The notes: generated by a model not told the origin, from the sequence alone. A stretch of DNA of 64,000 bases from Fidelibacterota bacterium (GCA_947476625.1 CANJRA010000002.1:124001-188000), one strand, 5' to 3'; shown: positions 38,406 to 48,528, counted from the first letter of the stretch. Translations and numbers: made by a program.

Positions 38406-39161
38406 ATGCCGCCCGCGCAGAAAAAAAACAAGGCGCGACCGCCGAAAGTGCGGGTGCTGAAAAAGCCAGTACCCAAGCCTAAGTCAACGTCTAAGCCTAA
38501 GAAAGCACGCGATCAGAATCCTGGGGGTTTCAACGCCCAGGAATTTCTCGACACGGTTGGTGCCGGCAGGCTGATTAGAAAATACAAAAGCGGCTAAGCG
38601 ATGTTTCTGCAGGGCGACCCTGCCGACGCGGTGTTTTATATTCAAAAAGGCAAAGTGCAGATCACGGTGGTCTCTAAGCAGTGTAAGGAAGGCGTTATCG
38701 CGGTTTTGGGTGCGGGTGAATTCTTCGGCGAGGGGTGTCTCGCGGGGCAGCCGCTGCATATCGCTACCGCAATCGCCATGGCAGAGTCGACGGTTGCCAA
38801 GATTGAGAAAGACGCCATGATCCGCGTTCTGCGCGACGAGCCGACATTATCTCAGATGTTCATGTCGTTCCTGCTGTCGCGAAATATTCAGGTCGAGGCG
38901 GACTTGATCGACCAGTTGTTCAATTCCAGCGAGAAGCGTCTCGCGCGTATCCTTCTTTTGCTGACGGCTATCGGCAAGGAAGGGAAAATGGAAACTATTC
39001 CCAAGATCAATCAGGATGTCTTGGCGGCACGGGTTGGCACAACCCGGTCGCGGATCAATTTCTTCATGAATAAGTTCCGCAAGCTGGGTTTCATCGATTA
39101 CGACGGGAACAGCACCCTGAAAATCCATTCGTCGCTGCTAAACGTCATTGTTCACGACTAA
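38406..39161 (+). pseudogene. Crp/Fnr-family regulator interrupted by an in-frame TAA
   Basis: Two open frames in the same phase read as one protein. The first, 38406-38597, gives a Lys/Pro-rich leader, then FNAQEFLDTVGAG and RKYKSG. The second, from 38601, gives MFLQGDPADAVFYIQKGKVQ, the standard cyclic-nucleotide-binding domain, then a C-terminal winged helix with ARVGTTRSRINFFMNKFR. In relatives the join reads as an uninterrupted G-E-x-(I/M)-F motif. Here the glutamate codon position (38595) is TAA, one substitution from GAA. An ATG three bases later could allow reinitiation, giving a protein without its first 64 residues. The missing part includes only the start of the sensor domain, so residual function is possible. 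Confidence 0.8.
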
Positions 39162-39174
39162 AGCCTGATGCGGG

Positions 39175-39244
39175 GTGTTCACTTTTGAACACACGCATAA
39201 AGGCGAAAGCGCGATTATTCGCGTGAAGTGTCCCTTATGGGACA
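39175..39244. promoter_or_regulatory. Cluster of inverted repeats between the Crp/Fnr gene and the entericidin gene
   Basis: Two clean inverted repeats are visible: GTGTTCA-CTTT-TGAACAC at 39175-39192 and TGTCCC-TTAT-GGGACA at 39229-39244. A shorter CGCG-ATTATT-CGCG lies between them. None is followed by a T tract. They lie 80-150 bp before the entericidin start codon and look like operator sites or a processed leader. Confidence 0.5.
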
Positions 39245-39327
39245 GCGCGCCTTAGGGGATGGGTCTAGGTTCCGGGCATGACCACACAACGTGGCCGCCG
39301 AAAAAATCCCCTGAAGGAACCTCCCAC

Positions 39328-39489
39328 ATGACCAATTTGCGCAAGGCCGCCTCCACCGTGCTCGGCGTGACAGCCACCCTCGTTGTCCTCTCAATCGGGC
39401 TTTCCGCCTGCAACACCATCGGCGGCGCCGGTAAGGACATCAAAAGCACCGGCAAGTCCATCGAGAGGGCCGCCGAAGACAGCAAGTAG
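39328..39489 (+). CDS. Entericidin A/B-family small lipoprotein
   Basis: This 53-residue protein has a short basic N-terminus, a hydrophobic segment and the lipobox LSAC, followed by the NTIGGAGKDI and helical tail typical of entericidins. It should be lipidated and placed in the envelope. In the alphaproteobacteria many such small lipoproteins are stress-induced; the ECF sigma gene 49 bp downstream fits that. The ATG at 39328 follows a GGAAC-type purine site. The open frame extends upstream but the leader is not part of the family. Confidence 0.85.
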   Translation: MTNLRKAASTVLGVTATLVVLSIGLSACNTIGGAGKDIKSTGKSIERAAEDSK

Positions 39490-39538
39490 CCGTCACGGGA
39501 TTCACGATGCGCGCATAACCATTTTAAGGATGCCGAAT

Positions 39539-40114
39539 ATGTCAAAACCGTTCCGAGGCATGCTGATCGATCACCTGCCGCGCTTGAGGGCGTATGCCAT
39601 GTCGCTGACACGCCATGCCGCAGACGCCGATGATCTCATTCAAGCCGCCGCCGAACGTATGCTGAAATTCGAATCCCACTTCGAAGTCGGAACGAATTTC
39701 TCGGCCTGGTCTTACAGAGTCTTGAAGAACAGCCACATCACCAATTGCCGTAAGAACAAGCACCGCCCGATTTCGTTAAGTCCGTTTATTGACGATGCCG
39801 CGCCTGATGCGGCGCTGGTTTCCCGTGCCTCCCAGGAAGATCAGATCTTTGTTCAAGAAGTTCTGGGCGGGTTGGATAAGTTGTCACCCGCTTTGCGCGA
39901 AATCCTGACGCTGGTCTGCGGCGCGCAGCTTTCATACGAAGAAGTGGCGGTGGTGTTGTCGTGCTCGGTCGGCACCGTTAAGAGCCGCCTCTGGCGCGCC
40001 CGCGCGCAAATGAAAGGTCTGCTGATCGGCGACGTTAGCGAACAAACCGACGAATCAGACTCACGCGACAGTGCTAAAAATACGTGGATCGGCGCTGATA
40101 CTGTCGCTAGTTAA
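39539..40114 (+). CDS. ECF-type RNA polymerase sigma factor
   Basis: This sigma factor is 191 residues from the ATG at 39539. Region 2 (about 10-75) includes RHAADADDLIQAAAERML and the SAWSYRVLKNSHI segment. Region 4 (about 110-160) includes ALREILTLVCGAQLSYEEVA and GTVKSRLWRAR. It resembles the alphaproteobacterial EcfG general-stress group, but no NepR or PhyR partner lies nearby, so the subgroup is uncertain. An anti-sigma gene is not evident either. It probably acts in stress response together with the adjacent entericidin. Confidence 0.85.
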   Translation: MSKPFRGMLIDHLPRLRAYAMSLTRHAADADDLIQAAAERMLKFESHFEVGTNFSAWSYRVLKNSHITNCRKNKHRPISLSPFIDDAAPDAALVSRASQEDQIFVQEVLGGLDKLSPALREILTLVCGAQLSYEEVAVVLSCSVGTVKSRLWRARAQMKGLLIGDVSEQTDESDSRDSAKNTWIGADTVAS

Positions 40115-40709: not shown

Positions 40710-41681
40710 ATGCTTAAAACATTCGCAGGCGCTTTAGTCCTCGCTGGCACATTTGCCGCGACGGGCGCCTATGCCCTTGATGTTGATCCGGCACTTAAGG
40801 ACTACAAAAAGAAGGCCGGCGTCGAAGGCAGCTTGAAGTCGGTCGGCTCCGACACGCTCAATAACCTGATGGCGCTCTGGGCCGAGACCTTCAACAAAGA
40901 ATATCCCAGCGTGAAGATCGAGATCGAAGGCAAAGGTTCGGGCACCGCTCCGCCGGCGCTGATCTCCGGCTCGGCGCAATTCGGTCCGATGTCGCGCCCC
41001 ATGAAGGGCGGCGAGATGGACGATTTTGAAAAAAAGTACGGCTACAAGCCGACCCCGATGCGCGTCGCCGTCGATGCCTTGGCGGTATTCGTACACAAGG
41101 ACAACCCGATCCAATGCTTAAGCCTGGCGCAGGTCGATGCCATGTTCTCCAAGACCCGCAAGAAGGGCGGCAAGGAAGACGTGAAGACCTGGGGCCAAGT
41201 CGGTCTGACCGGCGAATGGGCGTCGAAGCCGATCTCGCTCTACGGCCGTAATTCGGCCTCGGGCACCTACGGTTACTTCAAAGAAGTCGCCATGGGCGAC
41301 GGCGACTATAAAGACAGCGTGAAAGAACAGCCCGGCTCCTCGGCCGTGGTGCAGGGCATTGCCTCTGACAAGTTCGCCATCGGTTACTCGGGCGGTGGTT
41401 ACAAGACCGCGGACGTGAAGACTGTGCCGCTGACCGCGAAAGAAGGCGGCAAGTGCTTTGACGCCAACTCCGACAACGCCTATGCCGGCGACTATCCGAT
41501 TACGCGCTTCCTCTATGTCTATGTGAACGCGAAGCCAGGCTCGAAGCTTGAGCCGTTGCGCGCGGAGTTCGTGAAGTTTGTTTTGTCAAAGCAGGGCCAG
41601 ATGGGCACCATTAAAGACGGGTTCTTTCCGGTCCCGTCTGCGGTTGCCTCTCAGGATCTGGAAGTTCTCGGCGTCGAGTAA
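40710..41681 (+). CDS. pstS: Periplasmic phosphate-binding protein
   Basis: This 323-residue protein has a signal peptide (residues 1-22, cleaved near GAYA-LD). The PstS fold follows, with the phosphate-contacting GSDTLNNLMALW and SRPMKG segments and the GRNSASGTYGYFKE loop. It captures phosphate for the PstC/A/B transporter encoded downstream. A Pho box lies about 70 bp upstream. A stable hairpin 28 bp after its stop may lower transcription into pstC, as expected for a binding protein made in excess. Confidence 0.94.
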   Translation: MLKTFAGALVLAGTFAATGAYALDVDPALKDYKKKAGVEGSLKSVGSDTLNNLMALWAETFNKEYPSVKIEIEGKGSGTAPPALISGSAQFGPMSRPMKGGEMDDFEKKYGYKPTPMRVAVDALAVFVHKDNPIQCLSLAQVDAMFSKTRKKGGKEDVKTWGQVGLTGEWASKPISLYGRNSASGTYGYFKEVAMGDGDYKDSVKEQPGSSAVVQGIASDKFAIGYSGGGYKTADVKTVPLTAKEGGKCFDANSDNAYAGDYPITRFLYVYVNAKPGSKLEPLRAEFVKFVLSKQGQMGTIKDGFFPVPSAVASQDLEVLGVE

Positions 41682-41709
41682 GCAGACGCTGGGATAAATG
41701 ATGCAACGG

Positions 41710-41741
41710 GTGACGCCGACACTTCTGATGGTCGGCGTCAC
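41710..41741 (+). terminator. Intercistronic hairpin between pstS and pstC
   Basis: A perfect 11-bp stem, GTGACGCCGAC (41710-41720) with GTCGGCGTCAC (41731-41741), closes a ten-base loop. It is followed only by GCCGTTTTC, so termination is probably partial. It may also protect the pstS message. Confidence 0.65.
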
Positions 41742-41795
41742 GCCGTTTTCGCTCTAGCCGACTAAAACCGAACTAAACGTCGCAGGTACCTCCGC

Positions 41796-44450
41796 ATGGC
41801 TCCCACCGACTCATCCGTACCCTCCGATACGCCGCCTGCGCCTAAGGCCGTGCCGCGTCAGCGTCGCTCGATGAAGACCTCGCGGACCGTGCTGATTGCC
41901 GACAAAGTCGCCGATTGGACGATCCGTATTGGTGGTCTGGGTGTTATCGCGGCCGTGTTCGGCATCATGATGTTCCTGGGGTTGGTGGTGGTGCCGCTAT
42001 TCACCGGCGCTTCGGTCGAAGGTACGGGCGTGTCCGAGAAGGCCATTCCCGGCAGCCGTCCGTTGATGGACATCGTCGACGAATACAACACGCTGAGTGT
42101 TTCCATTGATGAGAGCGGCGCGATCCACGCGTTTCACATTAAAACCGGCACGCAACTCGAAGTGCCGCAGATGGATTTCGGCGGCAAGACACTGACGGCT
42201 TTCGCGCGCACCCTGAACGGCCGCGATATTGCGTATGGATTTTCAGACGGCACTTTGCGCTTGGCCACGGTCAAGGTCGGCGGTGTGGTTATCAATAGCG
42301 CCGATATCTCGGCTGATCTCAAGCGCCTGACCGATAAGGATTCGACCGACGGAAAGGCAATTTATACGGCAGTGAGCGCCGATCAAACGCGCCGTATCAG
42401 CATCGATGTGGAATTAAGCGCCGAGCAGCAAGTAGCCCCTGCCGGAACGGCCATTGTCGCCGCCGATTACCGGATGGGCGGCGCTGCGGAACGCCCAACG
42501 ATTTCGTTCATCACCGTCGATGCCGAGGGCATGGGCCGCCTGAGCCGCAGTGAATCCAAGACCAACATGTTGACGGGTGCGACGACGACCTCGTTGACGT
42601 CATCCGACTTGCCGGGCTTGCCCAAAGGCGTGAAGGTTCTGCGGGTACTGATGACCGACAAGGCCGATCAGGTCTATGTCATCGATCTCGGCGGTACGGT
42701 TTATCGCTACGACACGCGCGAATTCGATGCGCCGGGGCTGGCGGAAACAATCGATTTGTTGCCGGGTAACGTCACCGTCGGCGCGGCCAGCTTTTTGATC
42801 GGCGAGCAATCCCTGACTGTCGCCGGATCGGACGGCAGCGTCGGAGTGTTTTTCCGTCTGCAGGAACCGGGCGCTAAAACGACCGACGGCTATCAGTTAA
42901 CGCGCGCGCACGCGCTGGAGCCCCATAAATCTGCTGTCGTCGCCATGGATGCCAGCCAGCGCGGCAAAATGTTCATTACCGCCGATGCCGACGGCGAAAT
43001 CTGGCTGCGTCATTCCACCAGCGAACAGGTGTTGCTGAAACTGACACCGGAGCTGAAGGCCGGTCAGCACAAGCCGCTGTATCATGCGATCGCCTTGGCG
43101 CCGCGCGAGAATGGCGTACTGGCCGTTGCCGACGATGGGCGCGTCTATACCTGGGACATCGCAGCCCCGCATCCCGAGACCACCGTGAACACGATGTTCG
43201 GCAAAGTCTGGTACGAAGGCTATCCCGGCCCGGGATACACGTGGCAGTCGTCCTCGGGCACCGATGCTTTCGAGCCTAAGTTATCGCTGGTGCCGTTGAT
43301 CTTCGGCACCATCAAAGCGACGATTTATTCGTTGTTGTTCGCGATCCCGATTGCACTGGGCGCGGCCGTTTACACATCCGAGTTCGTGCATCACCGCGTG
43401 CGCGCATTCGTGAAACCGACCATGGAGCTGATGGCGTCGTTGCCGTCGGTGGTGTTGGGCTTTATTGCGGCGCTGATTTTAGCGCCGATTGTCGAGACGT
43501 GGATCGCGGCGATTTTCTTCGCCTTTGCCGTCATACCGGCAGGCCTGTTTTTCGGCGCCTACCTTTGGCAACTGCTGCCCGGTCCGGTTGCTTTGCGTTA
43601 CGGCGGCTTGCCGAAGTTCGCGCTGATCTTCTTGTCGCTGGCGGTGTTTGGGTATCTTGCATTCTTGGGTGCGCCCATTTTTGAAGCGATCTTCTTCGCC
43701 GGCGATTTGAAAGCCTGGGCGAACGGCGACGTCGGCTCCAGCATCCCGTTTACGGCGATGTTGGCTTTCCCCTTAGCCTTCCTCGTTCTCTATCTCGGCT
43801 TGGATGGATACGTGACGCGCTATCTCGGGTTCATTCTGCGCGGCGAGGATCGTACACGCGCGGGCGTCACCGACTTGGCGCGCTGGATCGCCACGTTGTT
43901 GCTCGCGGCGCTCATAAGTTACCTGTTGGCGGTTTTGCTGGTCGCGACCGGGCTCGACCCGCGCGGCGGCGTGGTCGATACCTACGTTCAGCGCAATACG
44001 TTGGTGGTCGGCTTCGCCATGGGCTTTGCCGTTATCCCGATCATTTACACAATCTCGGAAGATGCGCTGAACACAGTGCCCGAGCATCTGCGGGCTGCGA
44101 GCTTGGCTTGTGGCGCGACGCCGTGGCAGACGGCCACCAGCGTCATCGTTCCCACGGCCATGAGCGGCATTTTCTCCGCCATTATGGTGGGAATGGGCCG
44201 TGCGGTCGGCGAGACGATGATTGTCGTCATGGCGGCGGGCAATACGCCGGTCATGGAATGGAACATCTTTAACGGCTTGCGCGCGTTGTCGGCCAACATC
44301 GCGGTTGAACTGTCCGAAGCGGTGCGCGATTCCACGCTTTACCGCATGCTGTTCCTCGCGGCCTTAACGCTCTTTATTATTACCTTTGTTGTTAACACCT
44401 TAGCCGAGATGGTGCGCCAACGCTTCCGCAAGCGCACCGCTCAATTGTGA
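41796..44450 (+). CDS. pstC: Phosphate ABC transporter permease with large periplasmic insertion
   Basis: The protein has 884 residues, against about 320 for E. coli PstC. Helix 1 (about 44-70) is followed by roughly 425 residues predicted to be periplasmic. That part has repeated short strand patterns such as SAVVAMDASQRGKMFITADADGEIWLR and AIALAPRENGVLAVADDGRVYTWD, which look like WD40/beta-propeller blades. The permease domain follows from about residue 498, with the EAA-type loop near 765-785 (HLRAASLACGATPWQTATSV). Long PstC forms are known in other proteobacteria, but the insert's role is not established. It pairs with the similarly extended PstA. Confidence 0.92.
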   Translation: MAPTDSSVPSDTPPAPKAVPRQRRSMKTSRTVLIADKVADWTIRIGGLGVIAAVFGIMMFLGLVVVPLFTGASVEGTGVSEKAIPGSRPLMDIVDEYNTLSVSIDESGAIHAFHIKTGTQLEVPQMDFGGKTLTAFARTLNGRDIAYGFSDGTLRLATVKVGGVVINSADISADLKRLTDKDSTDGKAIYTAVSADQTRRISIDVELSAEQQVAPAGTAIVAADYRMGGAAERPTISFITVDAEGMGRLSRSESKTNMLTGATTTSLTSSDLPGLPKGVKVLRVLMTDKADQVYVIDLGGTVYRYDTREFDAPGLAETIDLLPGNVTVGAASFLIGEQSLTVAGSDGSVGVFFRLQEPGAKTTDGYQLTRAHALEPHKSAVVAMDASQRGKMFITADADGEIWLRHSTSEQVLLKLTPELKAGQHKPLYHAIALAPRENGVLAVADDGRVYTWDIAAPHPETTVNTMFGKVWYEGYPGPGYTWQSSSGTDAFEPKLSLVPLIFGTIKATIYSLLFAIPIALGAAVYTSEFVHHRVRAFVKPTMELMASLPSVVLGFIAALILAPIVETWIAAIFFAFAVIPAGLFFGAYLWQLLPGPVALRYGGLPKFALIFLSLAVFGYLAFLGAPIFEAIFFAGDLKAWANGDVGSSIPFTAMLAFPLAFLVLYLGLDGYVTRYLGFILRGEDRTRAGVTDLARWIATLLLAALISYLLAVLLVATGLDPRGGVVDTYVQRNTLVVGFAMGFAVIPIIYTISEDALNTVPEHLRAASLACGATPWQTATSVIVPTAMSGIFSAIMVGMGRAVGETMIVVMAAGNTPVMEWNIFNGLRALSANIAVELSEAVRDSTLYRMLFLAALTLFIITFVVNTLAEMVRQRFRKRTAQL

Positions 44451-44456
44451 TATAAT

Positions 44457-46196
44457 ATGAGCGCCATGACAGACGCCGCCGCCCTGCAGCAAGAAAGCGT
44501 TCCTATGTCTAAAAGCACCGGACGGCGAACCGATATGCGCTCGCGCGGCGAGCCTGCACTGTGGAGCTTGGGCGGTGCGCTGGCCATCGGCATCATCATG
44601 ATCCTTGGCTTTCTGGCGCTGGTGTTTTCCAACGGCGTCGAGACGTTTATTCCTAAGCCGATCACGGTTGTCACGGGCATCGATGGAACGGTGACCGCGG
44701 GGGAGCCTTTCCGCAGCGAATTGTTTAAGCCGACGCCGGAAGACTTCGCCAAGGCGTCTCCCGACTGGCAAGCGCGCATTAAGGACGCTAACGGTTACGC
44801 CAATCGCACGCTCTATCGTATGGGCAATTTCGACATCTACGGCGAAGATTTCCGTTGGGTTCCAGATTTTATGGCCGCAAAGATCGAACAGCCTCACGGC
44901 TTGGTTTTTGTCGAGCGCATGGAATGGGGTCCGTTTGTCGGCACCGTAAAGAGCATCAAGGTGGATGGGGTCGAGCGTCCTTTCACCACGCTCGACGACA
45001 CAGCGTTTGTGAAGGCGCATGAGACGGCGCGCGATCGGTCGAAGGCAATACGCAAAATCGAACGCGTCGGCATCAACGATGTCAATCACGCGCTCGAGCA
45101 GGAACGGCTTGGACTGCGGAAAGTTGAGTTGGCGTCGGGCCGCAACAGCGCGGAATACAAGGATGCCGAGGCGCGCCTTACCGGCATCAGTGCCGGACTT
45201 CAGCAACGTTATGATGCTCTGTCGGCCGACGTGCAGAAGCTGCGCGAAATCAATGCCGGCAATACGATCACCCTCGCCGAAATCGGTGGGCGTGAGAAGA
45301 CCATCGAATTCTCGGCGCTCGTGCGGGCCTATGCCGCCAACGATTTGAGTTTCGCCCAGAAAGCCGGTGTTTATGTCTCGCGGTGGGCTGAGTTTCTTGG
45401 CAGTGAGCCGCGCGAAGCCAATACCGAGGGCGGCGTATTCCCGGCGATCTTCGGCACGGCTGCCATGACGCTGTTGATGGTGATTGTCGTGGCGCCCTTT
45501 GGCGTCATTACCGCTTTATACCTGCGTGAGTATGCGCAGCAAGGGCGGCTGGTGTCGTTCGTGCGCATCTCGGTCAATAATCTGGCGGGCGTGCCGTCGA
45601 TTGTTTATGGCGTGTTCGGCTTGGGGTTCTTCGCTTACGTGTTGGGCGGTTCGATCGACGCGCTGTTTTATCCGGAGCGCCTGCCGAACCCAACCTTCGG
45701 CACCGGCGGCCTGTTATGGTCGGCGCTGACGCTGGCGCTTCTGACTGTGCCGGTGGTGATTGTCGCGACGGAAGAAGCTTTGGCGGCGGTGCCGCGGTCG
45801 ATGCGCGAAGGCTCGTTGGCCTGCGGCGCCTCCAAATGGCAGACCATTAAATACATCGTTCTGCCACGCGCCATGCCCGGCATCATGACCGGCGTCATCC
45901 TGGCCATGGCGCGCGGTGCGGGCGAAGTGGCGCCGTTGATGCTGGTCGGCGTCGTGAAGCTTGCGCCCGAATTGCCGGTCGACGGCATGTTCCCCTTCGT
46001 GCACCTAGAGCGCAGCTTCATGCATTTGGGCTTCCACATTTTCGACGTCGGCTTCCAGTCGCGCAATGCCGAGGCCGGAAAGCCCATGGTTTTTGTCACC
46101 ACCGTTTTGCTTATCGCGCTTGTTACGCTCGTCAATGCGACGGCTATCGTCGTGCGTAACCGGCTGAAAAAGCGTTTCGCCGGTTCACAGTTTTAA
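44457..46196 (+). CDS. pstA: Phosphate ABC transporter permease with helical periplasmic insertion
   Basis: The protein has 579 residues, about twice E. coli PstA. Helix 1 is near residues 35-60. The insertion (about 61-328) includes a charged helical stretch, roughly 180-290, likely to form a coiled coil ([18 protein letters not shown] and following). The permease domain starts near 331, with the EAA-type loop [20 protein letters not shown] near 455. The first ATG at 44457 is six bases after pstC; later in-frame ATGs at 44466 and 44505 are also possible because no strong ribosome binding site marks the first. Confidence 0.92.
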
Positions 46197-46218
46197 GCCG
46201 GCAGCTCAGGAGCCTCAG

Positions 46219-47052
46219 ATGAATATGGTAGCAACGCTCGCCCCGTACCCCGACACGACATTCGGAAGCACGGTCTATCACCTCAAGAGCGGGGGTAGCG
46301 GCACCATTCTCGATATCAACGACCTGTGTCTGTGGTACGGCGCGGCGCAAGCGCTTCACAATGTGCAGATGTCGGTCGAGAAGGGGTTGGTGACGGCGCT
46401 GATCGGTCCTTCGGGCTGCGGCAAGTCGACGCTGCTCCGCTGCATCAACCGCATGAACGATCTGGTGGATAATCTCAGAATCACTGGCGGGATCCGACTG
46501 AACGGCGAAGATATTTACGACCGTAGCGCCGACGTCATTGCGTTGCGCAAGCGCATGGGCATGGTGTTCCAAAAACCCAATCCGTTCCCGATGTCGATTT
46601 TCGAAAACGTTGTTTATCCGCTGCGCGTCGACGGCGTGCGCGACAAGGCGCTGCTGGAAGAAACCTGCGAGCGCGCACTCAGGGGCTCTGCGCTCTGGAA
46701 TGAAGTGAAAGACCGCCTGGATCAAAGCGCGCTTGGTATGTCGGGCGGGCAGCAGCAGCGCTTGTGCATTGCGCGTGCTATTGCCGCCGATCCGGAAGTA
46801 TTGCTGATGGATGAGCCGTGCTCGGCGCTCGATCCGATCGCGACCGCCAAGATCGAAGATCTGATCAACGAGCTTGCGGGGCAATATACGGTCGTGATTG
46901 TCACGCACAATATGCAACAGGCCGCGCGCGTGTCGGACAATACCGCATTTATGTACCTGGGACGTTTGATCGAATACGGCGATACCGAAGTCATCTTCCA
47001 GACTCCGAAGTCGCCGAAGACTCAAGATTATGTCACTGGCCGCTTTGGATAA
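46219..47052 (+). CDS. pstB: Phosphate ABC transporter ATP-binding protein
   Basis: This 277-residue ATPase powers phosphate import. Walker A is GPSGCGKST near residue 69, the signature [14 protein letters not shown] near 174 and Walker [14 protein letters not shown] near 195. The [11 protein letters not shown] and [16 protein letters not shown] segments are characteristic of PstB. It lies 22 bp after pstA and is preceded by an AGGAG site. Confidence 0.96.
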
Positions 47053-47059
47053 GGCATGA

Positions 47060-47830
47060 ATGGGCGTGCTTGATCAAAATTCGTCGCTGCAAAGTGCATT
47101 AAGCGCTCATGGCAGCCGTCCCATCGGCTCGGAGCTTGCCGTGCTGGCAGGACGGATCGCGGCCATGGGCGGGCTTGCCGAGGCGCAACTAGCCGCGGCC
47201 GTTGAAGCTATCGCCAACCGCGACAGCGAAGGCGCGCAGCGCGTCATCGCCGGTGATGAAGCGCTGGATGATTTGGAAACCGAAGTGAATTCGCGTGCCA
47301 TGCGCCTGCTGACGCTGCATGCGCCGGTCGCCGCCGACTTGCGCGAAATTGTCGGCGCTTTGAAGATCTCGGCCAATGTCGAGCGTATTGGCGACTATGC
47401 CGCTAATGTCGCCAAGCGCAGTATTATTGTGAACGGTTACCCCACGGTTCTGGCCCTGGGCGGTGTGATTGAGTTGGGACGTCTTGTGCGCCAATATGTG
47501 CAGAACACCTTCGATGCCTATGCCGAACGCAATATCGAGAAAGCCGAAGCCGTTTGGCGCGGCGATGCCGACATCGATGCGCTCCATGCCAGCGTCTTCC
47601 AGGATTTGATGTCCGACATGCTGACGGAATCGGACTATGTTCTGGCCTGCACGCACCTGCTGTTTGTGATTAAGAACTTTGAACGCATCGGCGATCACGC
47701 CACTAATATCGCCGAGACCATTCAATTCCTCGTGGCCGGCCAGCATCTGGCCGAGAAACGACCGAAACGTGCTTACGCGACCGCTGCCGCAACCGCGGAC
47801 GCTTTTAATATCCTTGGAGATAAATCATGA
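47060..47830 (+). CDS. phoU: Phosphate-signalling regulator PhoU
   Basis: This 256-residue protein consists of two three-helix bundles, each with the PhoU metal-binding-type motif (LKISANVERIGDYAANVAKR near 100-120 and KNFERIGDHATNIAET near 205-220). It links the Pst transporter to the phosphate kinase and represses the regulon when phosphate is plentiful. The stop overlaps the start of phoB by four bases. It follows pstB by seven bases. Confidence 0.95.
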   Translation: MGVLDQNSSLQSALSAHGSRPIGSELAVLAGRIAAMGGLAEAQLAAAVEAIANRDSEGAQRVIAGDEALDDLETEVNSRAMRLLTLHAPVAADLREIVGALKISANVERIGDYAANVAKRSIIVNGYPTVLALGGVIELGRLVRQYVQNTFDAYAERNIEKAEAVWRGDADIDALHASVFQDLMSDMLTESDYVLACTHLLFVIKNFERIGDHATNIAETIQFLVAGQHLAEKRPKRAYATAAATADAFNILGDKS

Positions 47831-48528
47831 AACCGACAGTAATGATCGTCGAAGACGAAGCCTCGTTGGCGACCATGCTGCGTTATAACCTCGAAAAAGA
47901 AGGTTATAACGTCACCGAAGCGGCGGACGGCGAAGAGGCGGTGACGGTGGCCGACGAGACGCCGCCCGACGCGGTGATCCTCGACTGGATGCTGCCGCGC
48001 ATGTCGGGTATCGAAGTGTGCCGGCAACTGCGGCGCAAAAACGAAACACGCGGCGTGCCGATCATCATGCTGACGGCGCGCAGTGAAGAAACCGATAAAG
48101 TGCGCGGGCTGAATGTCGGTGCCGACGATTATATGACCAAGCCTTTTTCGATGCCGGAACTGGTCGCGCGCGTGCGGGCGCTGTTGCGCCGCGCCAAGCC
48201 GTCGCAGGCCAAAGGCCAGCTCGTATTCGGCGATATCTTGCTGGACCTCGACGCTCACAAAGTCAGCCGCGGCGGCAAGTATATCCATCTCGGTCCGACC
48301 GAATTCCGTTTGCTGCAATATTTGATGGAGCGCCCGGGAACCGTGTTTAGCCGCGAGGAACTTCTGAACGGCGTGTGGGGCCCGGATATTTATGTCGAGC
48401 CGCGCACCGTAGACGTGCACATTCGCCGTCTGCGCAAGGCATTGAATTTAGACAACGGCGCAGATGTCATCCGTACCGTGCGTGCCGCGGGCTATGCGCT
48501 CGACAATTCCGATGAGCCGGTAGCATAG
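47827..48528 (+). CDS. phoB: Phosphate regulon response regulator PhoB
   Basis: This 233-residue protein has a receiver domain (1-120; phospho-acceptor aspartate in VILDWMLPRMSG near residue 56) and an OmpR-type winged helix (about 130-228; HLGPTEFRLLQYLMERPG and RTVDVHIRRLRKAL). It should bind the Pho box upstream of pstS and close an autoregulatory loop. The sensor kinase gene phoR, usually adjacent, is absent; the next gene is an outer-membrane barrel. Confidence 0.95.
   Translation: MKPTVMIVEDEASLATMLRYNLEKEGYNVTEAADGEEAVTVADETPPDAVILDWMLPRMSGIEVCRQLRRKNETRGVPIIMLTARSEETDKVRGLNVGADDYMTKPFSMPELVARVRALLRRAKPSQAKGQLVFGDILLDLDAHKVSRGGKYIHLGPTEFRLLQYLMERPGTVFSREELLNGVWGPDIYVEPRTVDVHIRRLRKALNLDNGADVIRTVRAAGYALDNSDEPVA

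Follow-up and report, generated by a model that had tools for sequence, protein, structure and literature searches.

A predicted β-propeller in PstC and a predicted helical hairpin in PstA accompany an N-terminal arm of PstS in a long-type phosphate importer

Many bacteria rely on the Pst system as their main high-affinity importer of phosphate, and it also serves as a model for Pho signalling. In the Escherichia coli complex PstSCAB (structure 9k3s) the permeases PstC and PstA have 319 and 296 amino acids (aa), respectively. A large folded periplasmic insert in the permease of a type I importer is described for the maltose system, in which the P2 domain of MalF contacts the binding protein MalE (PMC3150292, in the part that cites Daus 2009). 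Outside the maltose system, little is understood of how type I importers retain their binding protein close to the pore when substrate is very scarce. Here, we describe the pst operon in a window of 64,000 nucleotides from a Fidelibacterota bacterium (GCA_947476625.1 CANJRA010000002.1:124001-188000), in which pstC (41796..44450; all coordinates are those of the window, on the plus strand) encodes a permease of 884 aa and pstA (44457..46196) one of 579 aa. The operon belongs to the same transporter class as that of E. coli, with permease cores that are related and PstB, PstS and PhoU as the usual partners, but the E. coli permeases are too short to hold the domains described below. A sequence-only reading of the window had noted the unusual lengths and had proposed a propeller-like insert in PstC and a helical one in PstA, both directly after helix 1 and so on the periplasmic side. 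Our analysis suggests that both inserts, together with an arm of PstS, may serve to dock the binding protein.

The PstC insert is predicted with high confidence to be a WD40-like β-propeller (residues ~73–456, 42012..43163), which follows transmembrane helix 1 (TM1; ~residues 48–70, 41937..42005, assigned from hydropathy and present as a helix in the model). The AlphaFold2 model of residues 56–500, which was built from 70 aligned sequences, has a mean predicted local distance difference test (pLDDT) score of 88.6 and a predicted template-modelling score (pTM) of 0.85. The pLDDT of the propeller domain itself is ~95, and values below 50 occur only in the last ~39 residues, which belong to the ordinary TM1–TM2 loop. 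The domain is all-β, with seven four-stranded blades by our strand count, and its last blade is closed by the N-terminal strand directly after TM1. The predicted structure has the fold of a WD40-like propeller (Foldseek E of 2e-15 against WD40 proteins; VIA-align Z of 23.8 against WD40 structures, with 307 residues aligned and a root-mean-square deviation of 3.9), in agreement with the earlier proposal. The profile search advocated in the same reading stayed below every Pfam WD40 cut-off (PF00400, 19.4 versus 27 bits; PF25173, 33.9 versus 154 bits). The fold is shared with WD40-repeat propellers at ~10–15% identity, and the window domain differs from these in being inserted periplasmically in a membrane permease. 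The insert had been placed at residues 71–495; a large insert is indeed present, but the propeller occupies only ~73–456. Residues 459–503 (HPE...FGKVWYEGY...FEPKLSL; 43170..43304), the most conserved part of the insert region, align with the loop of a medium-type PstC (see below) and form the ordinary TM1–TM2 periplasmic loop, outside the propeller.

The PstA insert is predicted, also with high confidence, to consist of a β-domain and an antiparallel helical hairpin. In the AlphaFold2 model of residues 40–350 (pLDDT 90.2, pTM 0.78), TM1 is followed by the first part of the β-domain (residues 65–181, 44649..44999; pLDDT ~90–96), two antiparallel helices (residues 182–227 and 232–267, 45000..45257), the remaining β-domain (residues 268–298, 45258..45350), a further helix and TM2. 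The helical insert proposed earlier for residues 61–328 is thus refined to the 86 residues 182–267, with the β-domain making up 65–181 and 268–298. The helices of the hairpin comprise 46 and 36 residues (~55–70 Å), and the first displays a conserved polar stripe (R194, E202, N210, R217 and R221). VIA-align, which in PstA was applied to the hairpin only, found many similar two-helix arrangements at Z values up to 9.3, which are typical of a common arrangement; a particular family is indicated neither by these matches nor by those from Foldseek. For the β-domain, Foldseek gave only weak matches to Sm-like and adaptor proteins, none of which was significant. The position of both inserts after TM1 places them on the periplasmic side, as had been proposed. 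That they are random linkers is ruled out by near-constant lengths and invariant columns: the stretch corresponding to PstC 56–500 has 435–450 aa in 73 loci and that corresponding to PstA 40–350 has 306–317 aa in 74 loci, each with many invariant columns.

A third element, on which the sequence-only reading was silent, lies in the binding protein. All aligned PstS proteins of the long type carry a conserved arm of ~15 residues, DPALPxYxKxSGVSG, ahead of the first domain; in the window it comprises residues 23–37 at the N-terminus of mature PstS (LDVDPALKDYKKKAG; 40776..40820). The alignment shows that the arm is absent from all 22 PstS proteins whose PstC is without the propeller. A profile of the PstC insert matched 51 of 299 phylum genomes (a count that leaves out two off-target matches, in G109 and G141), and a profile of the PstA insert matched these 51 as well, along with further matches that were divergent or partial. 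The PstS of Pseudomonas aeruginosa, used as a query, found exactly those 51 genomes at E < 1e-90, and the next were three genomes of a reduced clade (f68, described below) at E of ~1e-73 to 1e-79. Within this sample the PstS of propeller/hairpin genomes matches even when pstS sits elsewhere on the chromosome. In a wider gammaproteobacterial set, a PstC loop of 342–472 aa was paired with a PstA segment of 156–174 aa in 125 of 125 loci, and the arm motif was found in 82 of 82 adjacent PstS proteins. The pairing of long forms, for which a survey had been suggested, is strict in both samples. One PstS-like match (39%; G205:C19:63604-64428) starts after the arm and lies within an open frame of 754 residues that may be a fusion.

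The three parts are reduced together in f68, a group of 22 gammaproteobacterial loci. Their PstC loop has 25–28 aa, compared with ~400–440 in the full type, and their PstA segment has 91 aa in 21 loci and 144 aa in one, compared with ~160; the hairpin is gone in the 21 and shortened in the other. In the f68 PstS the signal peptide runs directly into the first domain, without the arm, and the remainder of the protein is recognisable at 44–45% identity. A tree built with FastTree from the core regions of both permeases (473 columns), with the medium type as a distant root, nests f68 inside the gammaproteobacterial long type, with locus L301 as its sister (support 0.90); support is low at some other nodes. 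Loss of all three parts is the simplest reading of this placement. Genome G357 holds both versions, a full operon (L279) and a reduced one (L269), which belong to the same Pst type. Short PstA open reading frames at L300 and L302 were rejected as further hairpin losses, being contig-edge truncations with intact hairpins.

Both ends of a WD40 domain conventionally leave on the face that carries the AB and CD loops. As both propeller ends leave there, this face should point to the membrane. The loops on the membrane side are more conserved than those of the opposite face (mean of 0.573 versus 0.443, permutation p of 0.004, with our own strand assignment), as would be expected if the propeller sits on partner subunits. 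Covariation was assessed by mutual information with average-product correction, with the expectation taken from entropy-matched PstS columns; the p-values are optimistic because the arm was defined in more than one way and several subsets were tried. In the alphaproteobacterial set, 15 arm–propeller pairs fell in the top 0.1%, compared with 4.5 expected (p < 0.001), and the nine-residue propeller window covarying best with the arm was PstC 271–279. The same window was best after removal of a deep clade (10 versus 3.1 pairs, p of 0.004); after removal of ten further divergent loci a window at 148 came first and the stretch 267–279 was among the top five. The top-ranked window of the gammaproteobacterial set was the loop ERIELPQIA, homologous by alignment, and we estimate the chance of the same loop ranking first in both sets by coincidence at roughly 0.03. 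These results are suggestive of the propeller loop 271–280 (DLPGLPKGVK; 42606..42635) as a candidate contact of the PstS arm. When systems of equal PstB distance are compared, long-type PstS also shows somewhat higher conservation (69.7 versus 63.9% in the 70–75% PstB bin); as a sign of slower evolution under extra contacts this was given little weight, because different clades are compared.

By analogy with MalF P2, we propose, with a probability of about 0.55, that the propeller, hairpin and arm form a single periplasmic module that docks and tethers PstS. The propeller would lie with its bottom face on the permease, next to the pore; the hairpin of PstA would frame the seat of PstS, and the arm would hook onto the propeller, possibly at loop 271–280. 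PstS would then be held near the pore throughout the transport cycle, with better capture at low phosphate, as MalF P2 does for MalE. The analogy is one of function and not of form, as MalF P2 is a single, smaller insert (MalF residues 91–271) of another fold at another place in the permease, and MalE is not known to have an arm. We are more tentative, at somewhat below even odds, about the broader idea that a large class of bacterial phosphate importers, that of P. aeruginosa among them, employs a three-part clamp in which PstS is permanently or semi-permanently tethered and not freely diffusing. A role in PstS docking had been among the suggestions made for the inserts, and it gains support from the loss of the arm with the inserts and from the arm–loop covariation in one of two sets. 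If the tether exists, the textbook picture of Pst, drawn from E. coli, does not cover the form that Pseudomonas and many alpha-, delta- and gammaproteobacteria possess, and the N-terminal loop of PstS, which has so far been considered in connection with biofilm formation, would gain a role in transport. The idea is directly testable, as nature provides both a clade without the module and a genome with both versions.

Several observations weigh against a docking module. The joint reduction counts as a single evolutionary event, in one clade. Because most of the sampled f68 members also hold an additional, more distant Pst system, it could have arisen by relaxed selection acting on the operon as a whole. 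In L301 the propeller loop is retained, the hairpin is shortened (132 aa) and the arm is altered, and the three parts are therefore not rigidly coupled. The arm–propeller enrichment weakens once deep clades are removed and is absent from the gammaproteobacterial set (4 pairs versus 3.4 expected), propeller–hairpin covariation is not enriched in the alphaproteobacterial set, and the effective sequence numbers are only 47–76. Neznansky reportedly found in 2014 that a P. aeruginosa mutant in the PstS N-terminal loop was affected in biofilm formation and not in phosphate uptake, a result that would make an essential role in uptake somewhat less likely.

Some of the same evidence would fit domains that only stabilise the PstC–PstA pair, with the arm a feature of the PstS lineage that makes no contact. 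The strict pairing of the PstC and PstA forms, the membrane-side position of the conserved propeller loops and the failure of the arm–propeller covariation to replicate as an enrichment are all in line with this explanation, which we nevertheless consider improbable, as the clade that lost the propeller and hairpin also lost the arm, while the rest of its PstS remained recognisable. It seems similarly unlikely that the propeller or hairpin positions the importer by binding peptidoglycan, an outer-membrane protein or another periplasmic partner. The length of the hairpin and the polar stripe on its first helix would suit such an anchor, and the hairpins of the periplasmic adaptors AcrA, EmrA and MacA are among the weak Foldseek matches, but these matches are insignificant (E of 0.12 or more, probability up to 0.63), conservation is lower on the membrane-distal face of the propeller and the association of the PstS arm with the inserts would be left unexplained.

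A role in signalling, in which the propeller and hairpin would detect the docking of PstS or the phosphate state and pass this on via the permease to PhoU or PhoR, is more doubtful still. In E. coli, PhoU and PhoR are believed to read the conformations of PstSCAB (PMC5775613), and phoU and phoB adjoin the operon in the window. However, the short E. coli system signals without inserts (PMC5775613), nothing ties the inserts to the cytoplasmic side, and in L219 and L220, the two loci without the module that were examined, phoU still adjoins the operon; the earlier suggestion of a signal to PhoU is thus unsupported, and we prefer the docking module.

Long PstC and PstA proteins are already known, as they are present and annotated in sequence databases, and the sequence-only reading had noted long forms in other proteobacteria. 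A scan of a genome collection found 474 stretches encoding the long type; the best 80 of these are mostly from Alphaproteobacteria, with some titled Desulfomonile, Syntrophobacteraceae and Nitrospinae. The same type occurs in P. aeruginosa and Aeromonas caviae. The P. aeruginosa system (L120), whose PstS structures 4omb and 4pqj are the closest solved structures to the window PstS, shares the propeller insert, the hairpin in PstA and the PstS arm. Its PstA is 48% identical to that of the window, whereas its PstC has a propeller region ~40 residues shorter and a second membrane insertion about half as long. Neither a propeller in PstC nor the three-part association was found described among the open-access papers that were searched, which is not proof of absence, subscription papers being mostly uncovered. 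The P. aeruginosa PstC is annotated as a 677-aa protein (WP_003123734.1) under the bare name 'ABC transporter permease subunit', with its start after TM1; the frame at L120:1393-3801 (P. aeruginosa plasmid record NZ_CP070468.1) supports a PstC of 761 aa from MNDMANSPMN, which would include TM1 and the start of the propeller.

The second insertion of the window PstC, also not mentioned in the earlier reading, is predicted from anchor spacing and hydropathy to be membrane-embedded (residues ~572–728, 43509..43979). It adds hydrophobic helices between TM3 and the C-terminal permease core, and the span between anchors 565 and 729 measures ~165 residues here, 85 in the gammaproteobacterial proteins and 12 in the medium type; the E. 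coli PstC is too short for such helices.

The medium-type alphaproteobacterial Pst (PF12501, DUF3708; PF11812, DUF3333) resembles the long type in its extra N-terminal PstC and PstA regions and occurs in the same bacterial order, but its PstS belongs to a distant subfamily (22–25% identity or no match). Among relatives of the window the long insert is patchy (~22 of 61), and many others have this medium type, with DUF3708, DUF3333 and the distant PstS. The window proteins showed no match to DUF3333 or DUF3708 up to an E of 1, whereas the medium-type relatives match clearly, and homology between the two kinds of insert was rejected, a profile comparison having aligned only the permease core. 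When L190, L200 and other medium-type loci are compared with 40710-48528 of the window, phoU–phoB are closely related and the pstSCAB types differ; in L190, PhoU and PhoB are 60 and 82% identical to those of the window. Because PstS is of a distant subfamily while the adjoining phoU–phoB are clearly related, this comparison points to exchange of the pstSCAB genes as one cassette beside a resident phoU–phoB. L303, in a gammaproteobacterial genome (G644), is a long Pst operon of alphaproteobacterial type that nests among alphaproteobacterial sequences in the tree and looks like horizontal transfer or contamination. Metagenome-assembled genome records titled 'Candidatus Marinimicrobia' (L039, L043-L045, L047 and others) contain operons highly similar to those of the genus of the window; other relatives of that genus are titled Rhodospirillaceae, and the Marinimicrobia titles are probably wrong.

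The gene order in the window is pstS-pstC-pstA-pstB-phoU-phoB, and with its pstSCAB-phoU arrangement the operon is, as predicted from sequence, a Pst-type phosphate importer. The first gene, pstS (40710..41681), encodes a long-type phosphate-binding protein of 323 aa (TIGR02136, 265 bits; cut-off 206.6). PstA exceeds the equivalog cut-off of its family (TIGR00974, 234.3 versus 193.45 bits). PstC (PF00528) falls just under that of TIGR02138 (192.0 versus 196.45 bits, in two stretches divided by the insertion), which is still its best family, and on this basis and from the operon context the protein is assigned as PstC. They are followed by pstB (46219..47052; ATPase, PF00005), phoU (47060..47830; PF01895) and a phoB-type response-regulator gene (47827..48528; PF00072 and PF00486). 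No phoR was seen beside phoB in the window; a PhoR-like kinase lies on another contig of the same genome (306 bits, below the cut-off of 334). This genome (2.6 Mb, 50 contigs) has twelve permease family matches, and a search with the window PstC revealed no second Pst-like permease pair among them. Upstream of pstS, the region 38601-40114 encodes a Crp/Fnr-like regulator and an extracytoplasmic function-type sigma factor with a PhyR-sigma2-like match.

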